A stretch of DNA of 64,000 nucleotides. Origin: Chloroflexus aurantiacus J-10-fl. Lineage in GTDB: Bacteria > Chloroflexota > Chloroflexia > Chloroflexales > Chloroflexaceae. Of the stretch, positions 39,738-58,820 are shown piece after piece (the stretch's first letter is position 1; the number at the start of each line of letters is the position of its first letter). The notes under the pieces were generated by a model, which worked only from the letters and a program-made list of their open reading frames with translations, did no database searches and was not told the origin of the DNA. Both the position numbers and the translations under genes were made by a program. The DNA lies in assembly GCF_000018865.1 (NCBI RefSeq), contig NC_010175.1, forward strand, positions 496,001 through 560,000. The letters are read 5' to 3'.

Positions 39738-40558
39738 ATGCGTGCCGGAGGCGTGCGTTCCCAGGTATCTCGGGCGGTGCGCGCTGGAGGCGCGCGTTCC
39801 CAGGTATCTCGGTCGGTGTGCGCCGGAGGCGTGCGCTCCCAGGTATCTCAGTCGGTACGCGCCGGAGGCGCGCGCTCCCAGGTATCTCAGTCGGTGCGCG
39901 CCGGAGGCGTGCGCTCCCAGGTATCTCGGTCGGTGCGCACTGGAGATGCGCGTTCCCAGGTATCTCGGTCGGTGTGCGCCGGAGGCGTGCGCTCCCAGGT
40001 ATCTCGGTCGGTGCGCGCTGGAGGTGCGCGTTTCCAGGGGAATTCAGTCGGTGTGCGCCGGAGGCGTGCGCTCCCAGGTATCTCGGTCGGTGCACGCCGG
40101 AGGCGCGCGTTCCCAGGTATCTCGGTCAGTACGCGCCGGAGGCGCGCGCTCCCAGGTATCTCAGTCGGTGCGCGCTGGAGGCGTGCGCTCCCAGGTATCT
40201 CAGTCGGTGCGCGCTGGAGGCGTGCGCTCCCAGGTATCTCAGTCGGTGCGCGCTGGAGGCGTGCGCTCCCAGGTATCTCAGTCGGTGCGCGCCGGAGGCG
40301 TGCGCTCCCAGGTATCTCGGTCGGTGCGCGCTGGAGGTGCGCGTTTCCAGGGGAATTCAGTCGGTGTGCGCCGGAGGCGTGCGCTCCCAGGTATCTCGGT
40401 CGGTGCACGCCGGAGGCGCGCGTTCCCAGGTATCTCGGTCGGTGCGCGCTGGAGGCGTGCGCTCCCAGGTATCTCGGTCAGTACGCGCCGGAGGCGTGCG
40501 CTCCCAGGTATCTCGGTCAGTACGCGCCGGAGGCGTGCGCTCCCAGGGGAACTCTACA
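39738..40558. repeat. 39-bp minisatellite array, 21 units
   Basis: Twenty-one head-to-tail units of 39 bp, typified by GTGCGCGCTGGAGGCGTGCG then CTCCCAGGTATCTCAGTCG. Units 8 (40011-40050) and 16 (40324-40363) are 40-bp variants with TTTCCAGGGGAATTCAGTCG. Units 12-14 (40168-40284) are identical, and 8-10 repeat as 16-18, showing recent higher-order duplication. Because 39 is divisible by three every frame stays open within a run, but the 40-bp units shift all frames, so long reading frames here are artefacts. Confidence 0.93.
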
Positions 40559-40951: not shown

Positions 40952-40992
40952 CGTTGGTTCGCCTTTGACAAAGAACTAGAAAGGTGTGCGCA

Positions 40993-42351
40993 ATGGGTCT
41001 GCTCCGTTTCGCCGTCAAGACCTTTCGCCTCTCGCTGATGCGGGTAGGCGCCGGATGGATGTTTGCCCTGCTCACGTTCAACTTCAACCGGGTGTCAATT
41101 TCAGACCTCGGCGCAATGGCAGTGATTGTTACCACCCTGATTGGTCTGCACCACTTCATCTCGTTCTTTCAGGTGTACTGGGGGCGATTCACCGACCGTT
41201 ATCCGATCTTCGGTTTACGCCGCACACCTTACGTTATTCTGTCGAACGTAGGCGCTGCCCTTATCTTCCTCGCCTTGCCAAGTATTGCGGTTGGCCTGGG
41301 TGAGCGTTCCATTATTGCAACTATTGAAGCCTTCGCCCTCATCTTTTTGTTCGGTGTGCTGATGGCAATGAACGGTAGCTCGTCGAATGCGCTCATTGCC
41401 GAGGTCACCACACCGAAAGAGCGCGGGGCCGTCGTCGCCTTTATCTGGGCCACGGTGATTATCAGCGGTATCGTCTCGGCTGGTATCTCGCGCGTGATTA
41501 TGCCGGTCTACTCACCGGAGGCTATGCAGCAGCTTTATAACCTGACCCCAATTATCGTGACGGTCACCGTGTTGCTGGGTGTGATCGGGCTGGAGAAGCC
41601 GATCTCGAAGGAAGAGCATCGCAAGCTGCTGGAGCAGGCTCCTGAGAAGGGCGAAGCCGGGCCGCTGGAGACGTGGCGAGTTGCGACCGGTCTGATGAAG
41701 CGGAATCCCCAGGTGCGTGGCTTTTTCGCCTTCGTACTGCTGGCAATTCTCGGTATCTTCCTGCAAGATGCAATCCTCGAACCGTTCGGGGCTGAGGTGT
41801 TCGGCATGCCGCAAAAAGACACGGCTGCATTCCAGCAGGCCTGGGGTGCCGGTGCATTGCTCGGTATGCTCGGCATTGGTATTCTCTCCAGCATCTTCCC
41901 CATCCAGAAGAAGACTATCGCTACTCTCGGTGGCCTGGGGGTAGCCGGTGGGCTGGCAATGTTGATGATTTCGGCTCTTACCCTGCACCGCGAGATTATC
42001 AGCCCGGCACTGCTCATTATGGGGTTGGGCATCGGTCTCTTCAACGTCGGCGCACTAGCGATGATGATGGAGATGACCGTCGAAGGGCAGACCGGTCTGT
42101 ATATGGGGATGTGGGGTATGGCACAAGGCCTCGGCAATGGGTTTGCCAATGTGATCAGTGGTCTTGGCCATACGGTGATGATCGAAGGTGGTCTGGTCAC
42201 GCCATCGGTTGGTTATGGACTGGTGTTCGGGTTGGAAGCTCTGCTGATGGTGCTGGCTATCGGCATTTTGCGCGGTATTTCGGTGCAGGAATTCAAGGGC
42301 CTGACCCGGCAGGAGATTACAACTGCGCTGGCAATGGATGCGGCATCATAG
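40993..42351 (+). CDS. PucC/LhaA-family transporter (BCD family)
   Basis: 452 residues with about twelve membrane helices in major-facilitator arrangement. The opening 'LLRFAVKTFRLSLMRVGAGWMFALLTFNFNRVSISDLGA' and the cytoplasmic loop 'YWGRFTDRYPIFGLRRTPYVILSN' are the signature of the PucC/LhaA/Bch2 group, which in phototrophs handles assembly of light-harvesting or reaction-centre complexes and perhaps delivers bacteriochlorophyll. Late helices are Met- and Gly-rich (ALAMMMEMTVEGQTGLYMGMWGMAQGLGNGFAN). The ATG at 40993 has AGAAAGGTG upstream; a GTG at 40984 is less likely. First gene of the bch operon; the methyltransferase gene starts 30 bp later. Confidence 0.88.
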   Translation: MGLLRFAVKTFRLSLMRVGAGWMFALLTFNFNRVSISDLGAMAVIVTTLIGLHHFISFFQVYWGRFTDRYPIFGLRRTPYVILSNVGAALIFLALPSIAVGLGERSIIATIEAFALIFLFGVLMAMNGSSSNALIAEVTTPKERGAVVAFIWATVIISGIVSAGISRVIMPVYSPEAMQQLYNLTPIIVTVTVLLGVIGLEKPISKEEHRKLLEQAPEKGEAGPLETWRVATGLMKRNPQVRGFFAFVLLAILGIFLQDAILEPFGAEVFGMPQKDTAAFQQAWGAGALLGMLGIGILSSIFPIQKKTIATLGGLGVAGGLAMLMISALTLHREIISPALLIMGLGIGLFNVGALAMMMEMTVEGQTGLYMGMWGMAQGLGNGFANVISGLGHTVMIEGGLVTPSVGYGLVFGLEALLMVLAIGILRGISVQEFKGLTRQEITTALAMDAAS

Positions 42352-46029: not shown

Positions 46030-46235
46030 GCGGGCGCAGCATTGTAACCGCAGGTTGGATGATGGAGGTGGGCAATGTGGCTACGCCTTGCCAGACAAAC
46101 CACTGAGTATCGGGTCGCGCCGCTCAGGTTACGGATACGCTGGTGGATCGAGGGATGGATATGGCGCTGGGGCCAAACTGCGGCGGCACTGAACGCGGAA
46201 AGCCCCGATTTACAAAACCCGTGGTGGAGGCGCTG

Positions 46236-46988
46236 ATGAGTGAAAACGACGAAATCCCCGATCTGAAACTGCTCAATCGCCTCCTGGTGGAACGGATGCG
46301 GGTCAAACGGCGACCGGTCGCGATCACCTATTGTTACGATGGGCCACCACCGGGATACGAGCCGGTCAATGTGGTGGCGTGTGCGATTGTCCGCGAAGCC
46401 GAACAGGGGCGGCGCGTGTATGTTGATGCAAACCACCACGACTGTTGGGTAGGGCAGTACCACCTCGGTTTCAATCCTGATCCGGGGCCGTACATTACCC
46501 AGGGTATCTATCTGACCGATGCGCAGGGCTTTTATACACCGGAAGCCGCGGCGTGCAATAAACAGCAAAGCTACTCGTTACCGGCAGGGATGATCAAGGC
46601 ACTGGCGGCGGCACCACTTGACGACGTACCAGATGGAGTACCGGTTGATCTGATGGTCTGTGTGGTTGATCCACAACGGGCAATGCAGATCGCCGGTGCA
46701 GCCAGTGTGCGCATCGGGACATTTCCGGTCGGTGAGTTGGGTGCCAGTGCGTGTGCCTCAATTTTTGCTGCACCCTGGCACACCAAAAATTCAGTGTTTG
46801 CCATTGGTGACGGCGGCGGACGAATGCATAATCGGCTCGATCCGAGTGAAATGTTCGTTTCCATCCCGCGATCACATTTGCGCTACGTGGTAGAATTAAT
46901 AGAGAACTTCCGTATCGATCCGCAGAAAATGCGTGAAGTCATTATGCCGTCGTATGCTGCAAAAGCTCAACAGTCGCGAGAGGAGTGA
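46236..46988 (+). CDS. DUF169-family protein in the bch operon
   Basis: 250 residues. The pattern 'LLVERMRVKRRPVAITYCYDGPPPGYEP' near the start, 'GFYTPEAAACNKQQSYSLPAGMIKALAAAPL', 'DLMVCVVDPQRAMQIAGAA' and 'GTFPVGELGASACASIFAAPWHTKNSVFAIGDGGGRMHNRLDPSEMFVSIP' are those of DUF169, a family of unknown function often found beside redox or metal enzymes. Several Cys (TYCYD, HDCWVG, AACNKQ, VCVVDP, SACAS) could bind metal. ATG at 46236 set by GGAGG six bases upstream. It follows bchX and precedes a small membrane gene, and may serve chlorophyllide reductase (inference). Confidence 0.8.
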   Translation: MSENDEIPDLKLLNRLLVERMRVKRRPVAITYCYDGPPPGYEPVNVVACAIVREAEQGRRVYVDANHHDCWVGQYHLGFNPDPGPYITQGIYLTDAQGFYTPEAAACNKQQSYSLPAGMIKALAAAPLDDVPDGVPVDLMVCVVDPQRAMQIAGAASVRIGTFPVGELGASACASIFAAPWHTKNSVFAIGDGGGRMHNRLDPSEMFVSIPRSHLRYVVELIENFRIDPQKMREVIMPSYAAKAQQSREE

Positions 46989-46993
46989 ACACT

Positions 46994-47188
46994 ATGCCAA
47001 GCGGACTCGGAGAAGCCACCCAAATGATTGGTCCGTTGACGCCGGCAATCCTGTGTTGGGCCAGTTTGATTTTGACCGTTCTGGGTCTTGGTCTGACGTT
47101 CTTGTGGACGAATATCACTGCCTACGCACGTCGTACTCGCACCGGACGCAAGCCGACGGCCGGCTCCGTGATTAAATCACAGCGTTAG
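46994..47188 (+). CDS. Small single-pass membrane protein
   Basis: 64 residues: 'MPSGLGEATQMIGPLTPAIL', one membrane helix (about residues 16-38, PAILCWASLILTVLGLGLTFLW), and a basic tail (YARRTRTGRKPTAG). The basic residues after the helix suggest a cytoplasmic C terminus. GAGGAG eight bases before the ATG overlaps the DUF169 stop region. No family recognised. As the last gene before the bchI attenuator-like element it could be an anchor or accessory subunit of a bacteriochlorophyll enzyme, which is inference. Confidence 0.65.
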   Translation: MPSGLGEATQMIGPLTPAILCWASLILTVLGLGLTFLWTNITAYARRTRTGRKPTAGSVIKSQR

Positions 47189-47207
47189 ACCGGCTTCACA
47201 CAGGATA

Positions 47208-47306
47208 ACGGAATACCGTCGCCAGGAAGGAAGCACAGCATAGCTCTGTCTGTCCTGCCTGGTCAGGTTCGTTGCAGGCAGGCGGCTCCACGCCTGCCGT
47301 TTTATT
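47208..47306 (+). promoter_or_regulatory. Attenuator-like element with alternative hairpins upstream of bchI
   Basis: Four segments: 1 = CCAGGAAGGA (47222-47231), 2 = CCTGCCTGG (47254-47262), 3 = CAGGCAGGCG (47275-47284), 4 = CGCCTGCC (47291-47298) then GTTTTATT. Segments 1 and 2 close a long imperfect stem whose inner part is ACAG/CTGT. Segments 3 and 4 form an 8-bp terminator. Segment 2 also pairs perfectly over 8 bp with segment 3 (47254-47261 with 47275-47282), which would destroy both. The bchI ATG lies at 47327. Ligand or protein signal unknown. Confidence 0.6.
47277..47306 (+). terminator. Rho-independent terminator just upstream of bchI
   Basis: GGCAGGCG (47277-47284), loop GCTCCA, CGCCTGCC (47291-47298), then GTTTTATT. 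It sits 20 bp before the bchI start codon and after the small membrane gene. Confidence 0.8.
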
Positions 47307-47326
47307 GCGTACAAAGGTAACGTCAG

Positions 47327-48439
47327 ATGAGCAAAGAACACGTGCAAACAATCGCAACCGACGACGTATCGAAGAATGGTCATACCCCACCGACAAACGC
47401 CTCAACACCCCCCTACCCGTTTGTGGCGATTGTTGGTCAGGCTGAACTGAAGCTGGCTCTTTTGCTGTGTGTGGTCAACCCAACTATCGGCGGCGTGATG
47501 GTGATGGGGCATCGCGGGACGGCCAAATCAACCGCGGTACGGGCACTGGCAGCTATGTTGCCGCCGATCAAAGCGGTTGCCGGCTGTCCGTATTCGTGCG
47601 CGCCCGACCGCACGGCCGGGCTGTGCGATCAGTGTCGGGCGTTAGAACAGCAATCCGGTAAAACGAAAAAGCCTGCGGTGATAAATATTCCGGTGCCGGT
47701 GGTAGACCTGCCCCTCGGTGCCACCGAAGATCGCGTCTGCGGTACTCTCGACATCGAACGAGCGTTGACTCAGGGTGTACAGGCATTCGCCCCTGGCCTG
47801 CTGGCCCGCGCCAATCGCGGCTTTCTCTATATTGATGAAGTGAATCTGCTCGAAGACCATCTGGTTGACGTGTTACTCGACGTAGCGGCATCAGGTGTCA
47901 ACGTGGTTGAACGAGAGGGTGTCAGCGTGCGCCACCCGGCCCGCTTCGTACTGGTGGGATCGGGAAACCCTGAAGAGGGTGATCTGCGGCCCCAGCTTCT
48001 CGACCGGTTCGGTCTGCATGCCCGCATCACCACCATTACCGATGTGAGCGAGCGGGTCGAGATTGTCAAGCGACGACGTGAATACGACGCCGATCCGTTT
48101 GCGTTTGTCGAAAAATGGGCCAAAGAGACCCAGAAACTACAACGCAAAATCAAGCAAGCCCAACGGCGTTTACCAGAGGTAATCTTGCCCGATCCGGTAC
48201 TCTACAAGATTGCCGAACTGTGCGTCAAACTTGAGGTTGATGGTCACCGCGGTGAACTCACCCTGGCCAGAGCAGCAACCGCCCTGGCCGCGCTCGAAGG
48301 CCGGAATGAGGTCACCGTACAGGACGTGCGCCGAATCGCAGTACTGGCATTGCGCCATCGGTTGCGCAAAGACCCGCTCGAAACCCAGGACGATGCAGTA
48401 CGGATTGAGCGCGCCGTTGAAGAGGTGTTGGTACCGTAA
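47327..48439 (+). CDS. bchI: Magnesium chelatase ATPase subunit I
   Basis: 370 residues, AAA+ ATPase that with BchD and BchH inserts Mg into protoporphyrin IX. Walker A 'GHRGTAKST' is at residues 61-69; a Cys-rich insert 'CPYSCAPDRTAGLCDQC' follows, then 'LPLGATEDRVCGTLDIERAL', Walker B 'GFLYIDEVNLLEDHLVDVLLDVAASG', sensor 'FVLVGSGNPEEGDLRPQLLDRFGL' and sensor 2 'HRGELTLARAATALAALEGR'. AAAGG lies upstream of the ATG at 47327, within 30 bp of the terminator of the attenuator-like element, so expression probably depends on read-through or antitermination. bchD follows after 54 bp. Confidence 0.95.
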   Translation: MSKEHVQTIATDDVSKNGHTPPTNASTPPYPFVAIVGQAELKLALLLCVVNPTIGGVMVMGHRGTAKSTAVRALAAMLPPIKAVAGCPYSCAPDRTAGLCDQCRALEQQSGKTKKPAVINIPVPVVDLPLGATEDRVCGTLDIERALTQGVQAFAPGLLARANRGFLYIDEVNLLEDHLVDVLLDVAASGVNVVEREGVSVRHPARFVLVGSGNPEEGDLRPQLLDRFGLHARITTITDVSERVEIVKRRREYDADPFAFVEKWAKETQKLQRKIKQAQRRLPEVILPDPVLYKIAELCVKLEVDGHRGELTLARAATALAALEGRNEVTVQDVRRIAVLALRHRLRKDPLETQDDAVRIERAVEEVLVP

Positions 48440-48493
48440 CGCGACGTGAGCCTGACAACATTATCATCACAGTCGCTGTTGAAGGAACCTGAT

Positions 48494-50398
48494 ATGGTGC
48501 AAAAAGCCATTGCATTACCGGCAGCGCCTCTGCCATTCACGGCAATTGTTGGCCTGGATACGGCCCGGCAGGCGCTGCTGTTGCTGGCGGTTGATCCATC
48601 ACTGGCCGGGGTTGCGATTGGGGCCGGCGCCGGCACCGGCAAAAGCGCACTGGTACGGGCTTTTGCCCGTATGCTGGCCGGTGGTCGTGAATTTGATCCG
48701 ACCATCCCCTGGCAGTTGGTCGAGATGCCGGTCGGCGTGAGCGAAGATCGACTGCTGGGGGGGATAGATATTGAAGCAACCCTGGCGACGGGTGAGCGTG
48801 TCCATCGCAGCGGTCTGCTGGCCCGCGCCAATGGCGGCATGCTCTATGTGGATAGTGTGAATCTGCTCGATGACAGCACGATCAACCATATTTTGAGCGC
48901 ACTCGATAGCGGTGTTGTGCGGGTCGAACGGGAGGGAATTTCGGTCGTTGAACCGGCCCGCTTCGTGTTGCTGGTAACTTACGATCCGGCAGAAGGGCCA
49001 CCTCGTCGCCACTTACTCGACCGCCTGGGATTGATTGTGGCGCCAATTGGGAAAGCGCCGGTAACGACCAGAGCTGAAGTGGTGCGTCGTAACTTGCAAC
49101 CCGGCACCGATTACGAAGATGACGAAGCGCTGGTATTGGCCGGCATCCTGGCTGCACGTGAGCTATTGCCTTCAGTCACCATCAGTGATGAGCAGGTCCA
49201 GCAGTTGAGCCTGACAGCGATGGCACTCGGTATTGAAGGTCATCGTGCCGACCTGTTTGCAGTACGTGCAGCCCGCGCCGCCGCTGCACTGGCCGGACGG
49301 GAAGAGGTGAATAACGACGATCTCGAACTGGCAGTACGATTGGTCATGCTGCCACGCGCAACCCGCCTCCCCGAAATGACGCCGGAAGAGGCCGGGCCGC
49401 CGCCACCACCGGAACCGGCGCCACCTCCGCCATCACCAGAGAATAGTGACGATGAGCAGCGCGACGATGAAGAGGAAAAACCACCGCAGCCGCCTGAAGA
49501 CGAGCTGACCATCGAAGAGCTGATTCTGGCAGCGATGGAGACTGATGTGCCGCCAGACATTCTCGAAACACCGTTTACCGTGCGGCGACGCGGACGGAGC
49601 GGCTCACGCGGCACAATTTCGGGTCAGCGCGGGCGACATATCCGCTCGGTGCCGGGGAAACCGGCTCAGGGACGGCTCGATGTCATTGCCACGCTGCGGG
49701 CAGCCGCGCCATGGCAACGGATTCGGGCAGCGGAATACCATCCCCACCGACGCGGACGTATCCATCTGCGTGCTGATGATTTGCATATCAAGAAATATCG
49801 CTCGAAGGCAGGAACGCTCTTCTGCTTTCTGGTTGATGCCAGCGGTTCGATGGCGCTGCACCGGATGCGCCAGGCCAAGGGAGCGGTTAATGCGCTCTTG
49901 CAACAGGCCTACGTTCACCGCGACCAGGTAGCGTTACTGGCATTCCGTGGCGAACGCGCCGACCTGCTACTCCCCCCATCACAAAGCGTCGAGCTGGCCA
50001 AACGCGCCCTCGATGTCTTGCCAACCGGTGGTGGTACCCCCCTGGCCGCAGCCCTCCTCGCTGCGTACCAGATTAGCGAACAGGCCCGCTCACGAGGCAT
50101 CTTCCGCACAACTATCGTCTTGATCACCGATGGACGGCCAAACGTCCCGCTCAAAGCCGATCCGACGATGGACAAAGCACGGCGACTCGAACAGGCCCGG
50201 CAAGAAGTGCAACAACTGGCCGGTCGGCTGCGTGCCGCCGGTGTTGGCGCGGTTGTGATCGACACCCAGCGCAGCTTTGTGTCGCGTGGTGAAGCACAAC
50301 AACTGGCGGCCTGGCTGGGTGGACGTTATGTCTACCTGCCTAACGGACGAGGTGATCAGATCGCCAACGCGGTGATTGCAGCCAGTGAGGAGGGTTAA
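48494..50398 (+). CDS. bchD: Magnesium chelatase subunit D
   Basis: 634 residues. N-terminal AAA+ module related to BchI with a Walker A-like 'GAGAGTGKSALV' but 'MLYVDSVNLLDDSTINHILSALDSG' where BchI has DE, so ATP hydrolysis is probably lost, as is typical of this subunit. A Pro/acidic linker follows ('PPPPPEPAPPPPSPENSDDE'), then a von Willebrand A domain with MIDAS 'FLVDASGSMALHRM', 'LPTGGGTPLAAALLAAY' and 'VLITDGRPN'. It platforms the BchI ring and contacts BchH. ATG at 48494 with GAAGGA upstream; a GTG at 48446 is possible. bchH is not in the window. Confidence 0.94.
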   Translation: MVQKAIALPAAPLPFTAIVGLDTARQALLLLAVDPSLAGVAIGAGAGTGKSALVRAFARMLAGGREFDPTIPWQLVEMPVGVSEDRLLGGIDIEATLATGERVHRSGLLARANGGMLYVDSVNLLDDSTINHILSALDSGVVRVEREGISVVEPARFVLLVTYDPAEGPPRRHLLDRLGLIVAPIGKAPVTTRAEVVRRNLQPGTDYEDDEALVLAGILAARELLPSVTISDEQVQQLSLTAMALGIEGHRADLFAVRAARAAAALAGREEVNNDDLELAVRLVMLPRATRLPEMTPEEAGPPPPPEPAPPPPSPENSDDEQRDDEEEKPPQPPEDELTIEELILAAMETDVPPDILETPFTVRRRGRSGSRGTISGQRGRHIRSVPGKPAQGRLDVIATLRAAAPWQRIRAAEYHPHRRGRIHLRADDLHIKKYRSKAGTLFCFLVDASGSMALHRMRQAKGAVNALLQQAYVHRDQVALLAFRGERADLLLPPSQSVELAKRALDVLPTGGGTPLAAALLAAYQISEQARSRGIFRTTIVLITDGRPNVPLKADPTMDKARRLEQARQEVQQLAGRLRAAGVGAVVIDTQRSFVSRGEAQQLAAWLGGRYVYLPNGRGDQIANAVIAASEEG

Positions 50399-58345: not shown

Positions 58346-58360
58346 GGTATCATCAATACG

Positions 58361-58455
58361 CCTTCCCTCCGCTGGCATAACCCAGATCAGGTTCAAAGGG
58401 TCAGCGGCATCAATCGGGCCGCACTCTCAGCCGGGCTTACCCGGCTCCCCTGGCA
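58361..58455 (-). promoter_or_regulatory. TPP riboswitch (THI element)
   Basis: The minus strand reads CAGGGGAGCC..GGCTGAGAGTGC..GACCC..TGAACCTGATCTGGGTTATGCCAGCG..GGGAAGG, the conserved thi-box aptamer with its CTGAGA and GAACCTGATC..GGTTA..CCAGCG..GGGAA blocks. It should bind thiamine pyrophosphate and favour the terminator at 58313-58345. Confidence 0.97.
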
Positions 58456-58485
58456 GCGCGTATGCGCTTTTGCAGTTTGAGAGGA

Positions 58486-58745: not shown

Positions 58746-58820
58746 TGGTGGGCCGCCTCGGATTCGAACCGAGAACCTGTCGGTTATGAGCCGATTGCTC
58801 TGCCGTTGAGCTAGCGGCCC
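58746..58820 (-). tRNA. tRNA with CAU anticodon (Met; Ile-CAU possible)
   Basis: Acceptor arms GGGCCGC (from 58820) and GCGGCCC, D arm GCTC...GAGC, anticodon loop CTCATAA with anticodon CAT, T arm CTCGG TTCGAATC CCGAG, and an encoded CCA at 58746-58748. The anticodon stem has an A-C mismatch at its first pair. The acceptor stem starts with a normal pair, so it is not the initiator. Elongator Met is most likely; a lysidine-modified tRNA-Ile cannot be ruled out. Confidence 0.93.

Follow-up and report, generated by a model that had tools for sequence, protein, structure and literature searches.

The window, a stretch of 64,000 nucleotides of the Chloroflexus aurantiacus J-10-fl genome (contig NC_010175.1, positions 496,001 to 560,000), carries bacteriochlorophyll genes in the order bchF-bchC-bchX, followed by a DUF169 gene (46143-46988), a gene for a protein of 64 amino acids, small64 (46994-47188, plus strand), bchI for magnesium chelatase subunit I (47327-48439, plus strand; TIGR02030, E 9e-196) and bchD (48446-50398; TIGR02031, E 1.6e-259). 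The stop codon of small64 (47186-47188) opens the leader described here, which is the 138-nt gap from small64 to bchI and which contains a likely bchI ribosome-binding site, AAAGG, read directly at 47313-47317 (plus strand); AAAGGT is invariant in the seven other genomes of our genus sample. This sample covers one genus, Chloroflexus, with eight genomes (G000 to G007), the window species included. The order bchF-bchC-bchX-DUF169-small64-bchI is found in all eight, with small64, leader and bchI immediately adjoining, and bchD comes next in seven, the contig of G005 stopping there. In excerpts of two papers, the Caur locus tags of bchX (0417) and bchI (0419) leave one number for small64 and the DUF169 gene together (PMC3150298, PMC9316378), and the excerpt of the latter assigns bchI-1/bchD-1 to the same operon as bchF, bchC and bchX (PMC9316378). 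At one locus of G007 (L186, G007:C59:162300-170800) identity to the window is 100% for bchC and bchX and 99.3% for the DUF169 gene, while small64 (90.6%) and bchI (91.4%) stand at the ordinary genus distance; either a recombination breakpoint lies within the operon or the assembly is a mosaic.

The small64 product matches chain N of PDB entry 8ydm, annotated 'hypothetical protein', over residues 1-64 of 64 (phmmer, E 7e-39), and has no NCBIfam or Pfam match. We take 8ydm to be a C. aurantiacus structure, its listing naming no organism; it also holds a reaction centre L chain, to which the PufL of the window genome matches over 311/311 residues (8ydm_L). Given these two matches, small64 encodes a photocomplex component, and the switch does not lie directly behind the bchX group, as the original prediction had it, since this gene stands between them. 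Outside Chloroflexus, a small64 homologue precedes bchI in 27 of 35 loci, two of which (L161 and L036) come from the same genome. The eight loci without it are L030, which is cut by a contig end, and the seven from family f4, which we regard as Roseiflexaceae, where no small64 homologue is found within 2.5-2.8 kb upstream of bchI.

All leader elements lie on the plus strand. The predicted intrinsic terminator pairs 47277-47284 (GGCAGGCG) with strand 4 at 47291-47298 (CGCCTGCC) and is followed by a U-rich tract at 47299-47306 (GTTTTATT); 20 nt separate the end of this tract from the bchI start codon (ATG, 47327). The terminator is read directly from the sequence, is also found by a terminator scan and has an energy of -17.1 kcal/mol in the window species. 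Its 5' arm belongs to strand 3 (47275-47284), of which 47275-47282 (CAGGCAGG) forms a perfect 8-bp antiterminator pairing with 47254-47261 (CCTGCCTG) of strand 2 (47252-47261). Both hairpins are present as originally predicted, and so is the mutual exclusivity of 1:2 + 3:4 versus 2:3, the alternative helices sharing 47254-47257 in strand 2 and 47277-47282 in strand 3. The stem proposed as 1:2 fared less well: 47222-47231 (CCAGGAAGGA) does pair imperfectly with about 47253-47262, and does so in the minimum-energy fold, but it is specific to the window species, no stem of this type being seen in the aligned region of the seven relatives. Two features had been overlooked, the small64 gene ending at 47188 and a conserved strand 1 (CAGGAT, 47201-47206), which pairs with 47252-47257 and aligns to GCGGGAT in the seven others. 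Next to this strand lies a conserved stretch of the arm, 47207-47222 (AACGGAATACCGTCGC), a candidate signal-binding part. A scan for sigma-70 promoters detects none inside the leader.

The 1:2, 2:3, 3:4 layout is found at the same place in all eight genomes. Conservation of both alternative pairings among related genomes had been named beforehand as a check on the switch, and both persist throughout the genus. In the seven relatives the strands read GCGGGAT (1), TCCCGCC (2), GGGCGGG (3) and GCCCGC or GCTCGC (4), then the U tract, and in the window CAGGAT (1), GTCCTGCCTG (2), CAGGCAGGCG (3) and CGCCTGCC (4). The named helices are free of mismatches in 8/8 genomes, with helix 1:2 of the window counted as six pairs, as it is broken at its outermost position (A against C). 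In the window species one position has changed in concert in strands 1, 2, 3 and 4, by which 1:2, 2:3 and 3:4 are all kept, and strands 1 and 3 carry further changes besides; window strand 3 was placed against the relatives by structure, plain alignment putting it four columns off. The bchI tree pairs the window species with G006 as sisters (support 0.976); G006 keeps the common form, hence the four-strand change is derived in the window species. A G+C-rich hairpin followed by a U-rich tract occurs in all eight leaders, at -14.0 to -18.3 kcal/mol and with imperfect tracts of 5-6 U in 10. A second small hairpin is seen in the relatives' leaders (alignment A2, columns 119-143), in which the last bases of the U tract may be paired to the start codon of bchI, with the ribosome-binding site looped out between them.

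Fourfold-degenerate bchI sites have a mean identity of 49% (0.37-0.73) among the seven relatives. In the same comparison strand 1 (columns 15-21) is 100% and strand 2 (columns 68-75) 94% identical. No other segment of the Chloroflexus leader is as well conserved: identity falls to 88% in the tail, to 83% in the hairpin and to 62% in the middle part of the arm. The stretch 47207-47222 of the window shows 75% mean identity to the other seven, against 44% at fourfold bchI sites.

RNAalifold on the seven relatives gives a long arm made of P0 (columns 7-12/90-95), P1 (13-21/68-77), an inner helix and P2, and then the terminator; the P2 partner of 47207-47222 is not evident in the window species. 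Five arm pairs have changes on both sides, spread over G001, G003 and G006. Compared with column shuffles, which do not keep dinucleotides, the consensus fold stands at z -5.25 as a whole and at z -4.34 without the terminator, with 0/300 shuffles as low, and the antiterminator alone at z -2.96 (1/300). The antiterminator can be extended to 13 pairs with 92.3% of cells paired in the seven-genome alignment, and in the consensus model both of its strands would be hidden by P0 and P1. Slid controls pair 29-52% of cells versus 91-96% for the real helices. Shuffles of pair letters in the seven-genome alignment do not reject chance, neither for the terminator state (141/500 for cells paired, 54/500 for covariation score) nor for the antiterminator state (201/500 and 110/500), since most helix columns, key strands included, hardly vary.

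In a second kind of control the terminator was held fixed and the part upstream was dinucleotide-shuffled, 2000 times per genome. The 2:3 helix of the window is matched in 7/2000 shuffles, and 2:3 and 1:2 jointly in none; for the seven relatives, between 32 and 289 of 2000 shuffles match 2:3 by itself and between 1 and 24 match the two helices together. Among 64 terminator-like sites in twenty 20-kb stretches (400 kb) of the same genome, none reaches the 2:3 score of the window, one and three reach the lower scores of relatives, and none shows both pairings at any of three thresholds. Folding of the leader, suggested earlier as a check, returns the originally proposed stem in the minimum-energy fold, but the total energy is unremarkable (z -1.32, with 21/200 shuffles folding as well); z is -2 or lower in only 3/8 Chloroflexus leaders.

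No second copy of the leader was found in the window genome (5,258,541 bases), where only fragments of 14-20 bases occur elsewhere. The hairpin pattern of the relatives, with up to three mismatches allowed, is found once, at the bchI leader, in six of the eight genus genomes and nowhere in the other two, so that neither the window genome nor the genus shows the many copies per genome of a REP-like dispersed repeat. A leader model, R1, was built from seven leaders and searched in 61 genomes, 17 of which have a match up to E 1. It recovers the leader in all eight genus genomes, the window leader at just 23.8 bits (E 0.0158), and among the 61 genomes it finds the leader in the genus Chloroflexus only, matches in other genera being weak (E 0.07 to 0.93). 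Three additional matches fall inside the genus: the one at G007:C38 (27.7 bits, E 0.0014) belongs to an array of tandem hairpins, G004:C1:1140851 (18.6 bits, E 0.34) is probably a chance match, and at G005:C9:1796 the model meets the leader's own hairpin on its opposite strand. The short tandem hairpins of G007:C38 (GGGCGAGG.ATGCCTCGCCC-GTCCATTTTGG, about 3470-3630 of L159) resemble the bchI terminator hairpin of the relatives. Rfam 15, at gathering and at lenient thresholds, gives no match at the window leader (up to E 5 on 47150-47340) and, up to E 1, two matches in the loci of the seven relatives, both far below their cut-offs and taken as chance: RF02423 on the G006 leader (19 bits, cut-off 80, E 0.39) and RF01119 outside the G004 leader (19.2 bits, cut-off 40, E 0.28). 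Signal-recognition-particle RNA, suspected at first from the motif GGAAGGAAGCA in the window, was dropped as no match was found. The leader is not reported in the open-access literature searched (Chloroflexus bchI operon, attenuators, riboswitches, small RNA).

Twenty-five leaders from 16 other Chloroflexaceae genera were also analysed, with start codons picked by eye among in-frame candidates. Three loci were excluded: L030 is cut by its contig end, L035 has a gap of 737 nt, and L161 duplicates the genome of L036. In 21 of the 25 the leader folds better than its shuffles (z -2 or lower), and strong hairpins of unrelated sequence are seen between small64 and bchI, several of them without a U tract. 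An upstream partner of the hairpin does not stand out in any of the 21 testable leaders (lowest count 17/300 shuffles), where the strongest ungapped stem was taken, in some cases not the terminator-like one. Given these unrelated hairpins, a hairpin at this place would be either older than the genus or repeatedly gained, and the switch itself looks like a Chloroflexus addition.

Equilibrium folding of partial transcripts was modelled for the eight genomes at 37°C and at 55°C, the latter being a growth temperature used for C. aurantiacus according to an excerpt of PMC4686737. In the seven relatives helix 1:2 comes first, with a probability of 0.74 or more. With strand 3 just out, 2:3 reaches 0.64-0.87 in five of the seven at 37°C and is about 0 in G003 and G004 at both temperatures; at 55°C it amounts to 0.28 or less in six of the seven and to 0.75 in G006, which prefers the antiterminator throughout. 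With strand 4 out, the terminator has a probability of 0.85 or more in 7/8 genomes. In the full-length leader of G004 another fold replaces the terminator, which is left with 0.03 at 37°C. In the window species 47222-47231 sequesters strand 2, at 0.57-0.63 with strand 3 out and at 0.98 or more with strand 4 out; the antiterminator is at 0.30-0.39 when strand 3 is out, and the helix with the conserved strand 1 scarcely forms (at most 0.07 at 37°C and 0.17 at 55°C). Hence, the hiding of strand 2 appears to be kept in this species, with the hiding strand presumably replaced. P0 is near 0 in the window species and at 0.09 or less in the full-length leaders of all eight. In these models the terminated fold is the default at growth temperature, so read-through would need the help of a factor.

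Published transcript data bear on the two sides of the leader in another species. G004, a single contig of 4,684,931 bases, which we take to be C. aggregans, has bchI-like genes at 1.471, 2.821 and 3.784 Mb, besides weaker AAA+ matches, and pufLM at 1.996-1.998 Mb. In C. aggregans the bchI paralogues are Cagg_1192, 2319 and 3123, and pufLM is Cagg_1639-1640 (PMC8004040). Given 1.21-1.23 kb per tag throughout G004, Cagg_3123 would be the bchI of the operon, and from the order of the list we infer that bchI-III is Cagg_3123. In a diel metatranscriptome of C. aggregans in a hot-spring mat, bchF, bchX and bchC peak around 15:00, and bchD and bchI-III at 05:00 (PMC8004040). These data support, on the gene mapping adopted here, a different daily course for transcripts before and behind the leader; the differing peaks could also stem from separate decay or from a promoter at another place.

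The sequence establishes a real, conserved, genus-specific attenuator-like RNA, by way of three mutually exclusive pairings that the whole genus keeps, their single occurrence and their position; regulated termination at this RNA is likely. We consider it moderately probable that it acts as a transcription attenuator inside the bchF-bchC-bchX-DUF169-small64-bchI-bchD operon, as the original prediction read it; that reading is strengthened by pairings kept in 8/8 genomes, by a consensus fold that beats column shuffles and by C. aggregans patterns that part at the junction. In the proposed mechanism RNA polymerase, past small64, enters the 138-nt leader, where by default the 5' arm would capture strand 2 and hairpin 3:4 would form, and transcription would stop about 20 nt before bchI. 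If the arm were blocked or destabilised, strand 2 would pair with strand 3 as antiterminator, the terminator would not form and the polymerase would read on into bchI-bchD. The conserved arm may sense a bound factor, a small molecule or an RNA-binding protein, and a ribosome terminating on small64 is a second candidate input. The switch would thus probably tune the amount of a pigment-making enzyme from a shared operon.

Magnesium chelatase is the first committed step of bacteriochlorophyll synthesis. A conserved attenuator before its genes would be a concrete, testable control point; it would explain how bchI-bchD might follow another daily course than bchF-bchC-bchX within one operon, and would tie the chelatase to the photocomplex subunit gene sitting right before the switch. 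According to an excerpt of PMC9316378, the control of this synthesis in Chloroflexus is unclear, photosynthesis genes being scattered. In a more specific and quite improbable version, the arm would represent a riboswitch class that is new and restricted to Chloroflexus, responding to a tetrapyrrole intermediate, to Mg2+ or to a redox signal; if true, such a riboswitch would gate magnesium chelatase transcription from within an operon.

Terminator/antiterminator attenuators and transcriptional riboswitches are a general class with exclusive helices. The Chloroflexus leader resembles them in its 1:2 + 3:4 versus 2:3 pairing, in the terminator-like hairpin before the regulated gene and in the terminated fold favoured in 7/8 genomes once strand 4 is out, and differs in lying between operon genes instead of at the operon 5' end and in its restriction to one genus; unlike known riboswitches, it matches no Rfam 15 aptamer class. 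Strand order and exclusivity are those of a trp-type attenuator, but no leader peptide with control codons is found among open reading frames of at least 20 amino acids, the upstream frame being the conserved 64-aa subunit that ends before strand 1. Intra-operon attenuators are known from E. coli in rplL-rpoB, orfE-pyrE and frd-ampC, where a terminator likewise separates one product from a second, encoded downstream, that is needed less; to this Chloroflexus adds a conserved antiterminator and a sequestering arm. The puf intercistronic hairpin of Rhodobacter, mentioned in an excerpt of PMC11354728, is also an RNA structure between photosynthesis genes that sets a ratio. It works via mRNA stability, whereas the U tract and alternative pairings of Chloroflexus point to transcription.

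The main rival, although in our estimate unlikely, is a plain ratio-setting hairpin, that is a fixed, unregulated stem-loop which, as partial terminator or RNA-protecting hairpin, yields more photocomplex subunit than chelatase from a single operon, much like the puf hairpin in Rhodobacter. It keeps this rank because the other Chloroflexaceae carry unrelated hairpins here (the 21 of 25 leaders above), which support a hairpin that mainly sets the ratio of the two products, and the upstream product, as a structural subunit, may have to be made in greater quantity than an enzyme. Such a hairpin would need neither strand 1 nor strand 2, yet these are the best conserved leader segments, which argues that Chloroflexus does more than ratio setting, and the other genera show no standout upstream partner. 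Moreover, the transcript peaks differ in time and not only in level (PMC8004040).

We are more doubtful of ribosome-coupled attenuation, in which a ribosome finishing small64 would cover the start of the arm, favour the antiterminator and so let the chelatase genes be transcribed. The consensus arm P0 does start at column 7, three nt after the stop codon, and in 8/8 genomes no insertion or deletion interrupts the alignment between the stop codon and the end of strand 1, which is weak evidence given the shortness of the spacer. Against it, P0 is scarcely populated in full-length folds, and the conserved stretch 47207-47222 lies beyond the reach of the footprint of a terminating ribosome, suggesting another reader.

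It is highly improbable that the strong hairpin and U tract are an ordinary end-of-operon terminator with bchI-bchD served by their own promoter. The hairpin is only 28 nt from the ATG, too little for a promoter plus ribosome-binding site, so a bchI transcript that carries its own ribosome-binding site and starts upstream must pass it, and the excerpt of PMC9316378 places bchI-1/bchD-1 in the operon of the genes upstream. Finally, chance or a dispersed repeat, in which two neighbouring hairpins of one family would pair automatically, has in our view only the slimmest probability and is already disfavoured: strands 1/3 and 2/4 do resemble each other and the R1 match in G007 does sit in a tandem array of similar hairpins, but the pattern is single in the genomes that have it, the window genome holds mere fragments and the joint shuffle counts range from 0 to 24/2000.

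Two other features were observed in the window. A tandem repeat of period 39 with about 21 copies (39739-40547) lies upstream of a PUCC-family transporter gene (40984-42351), and on the minus strand a TPP riboswitch (RF00059, 69.9 bits, 58346-58461) is accompanied by a tRNA at 58749-58820.
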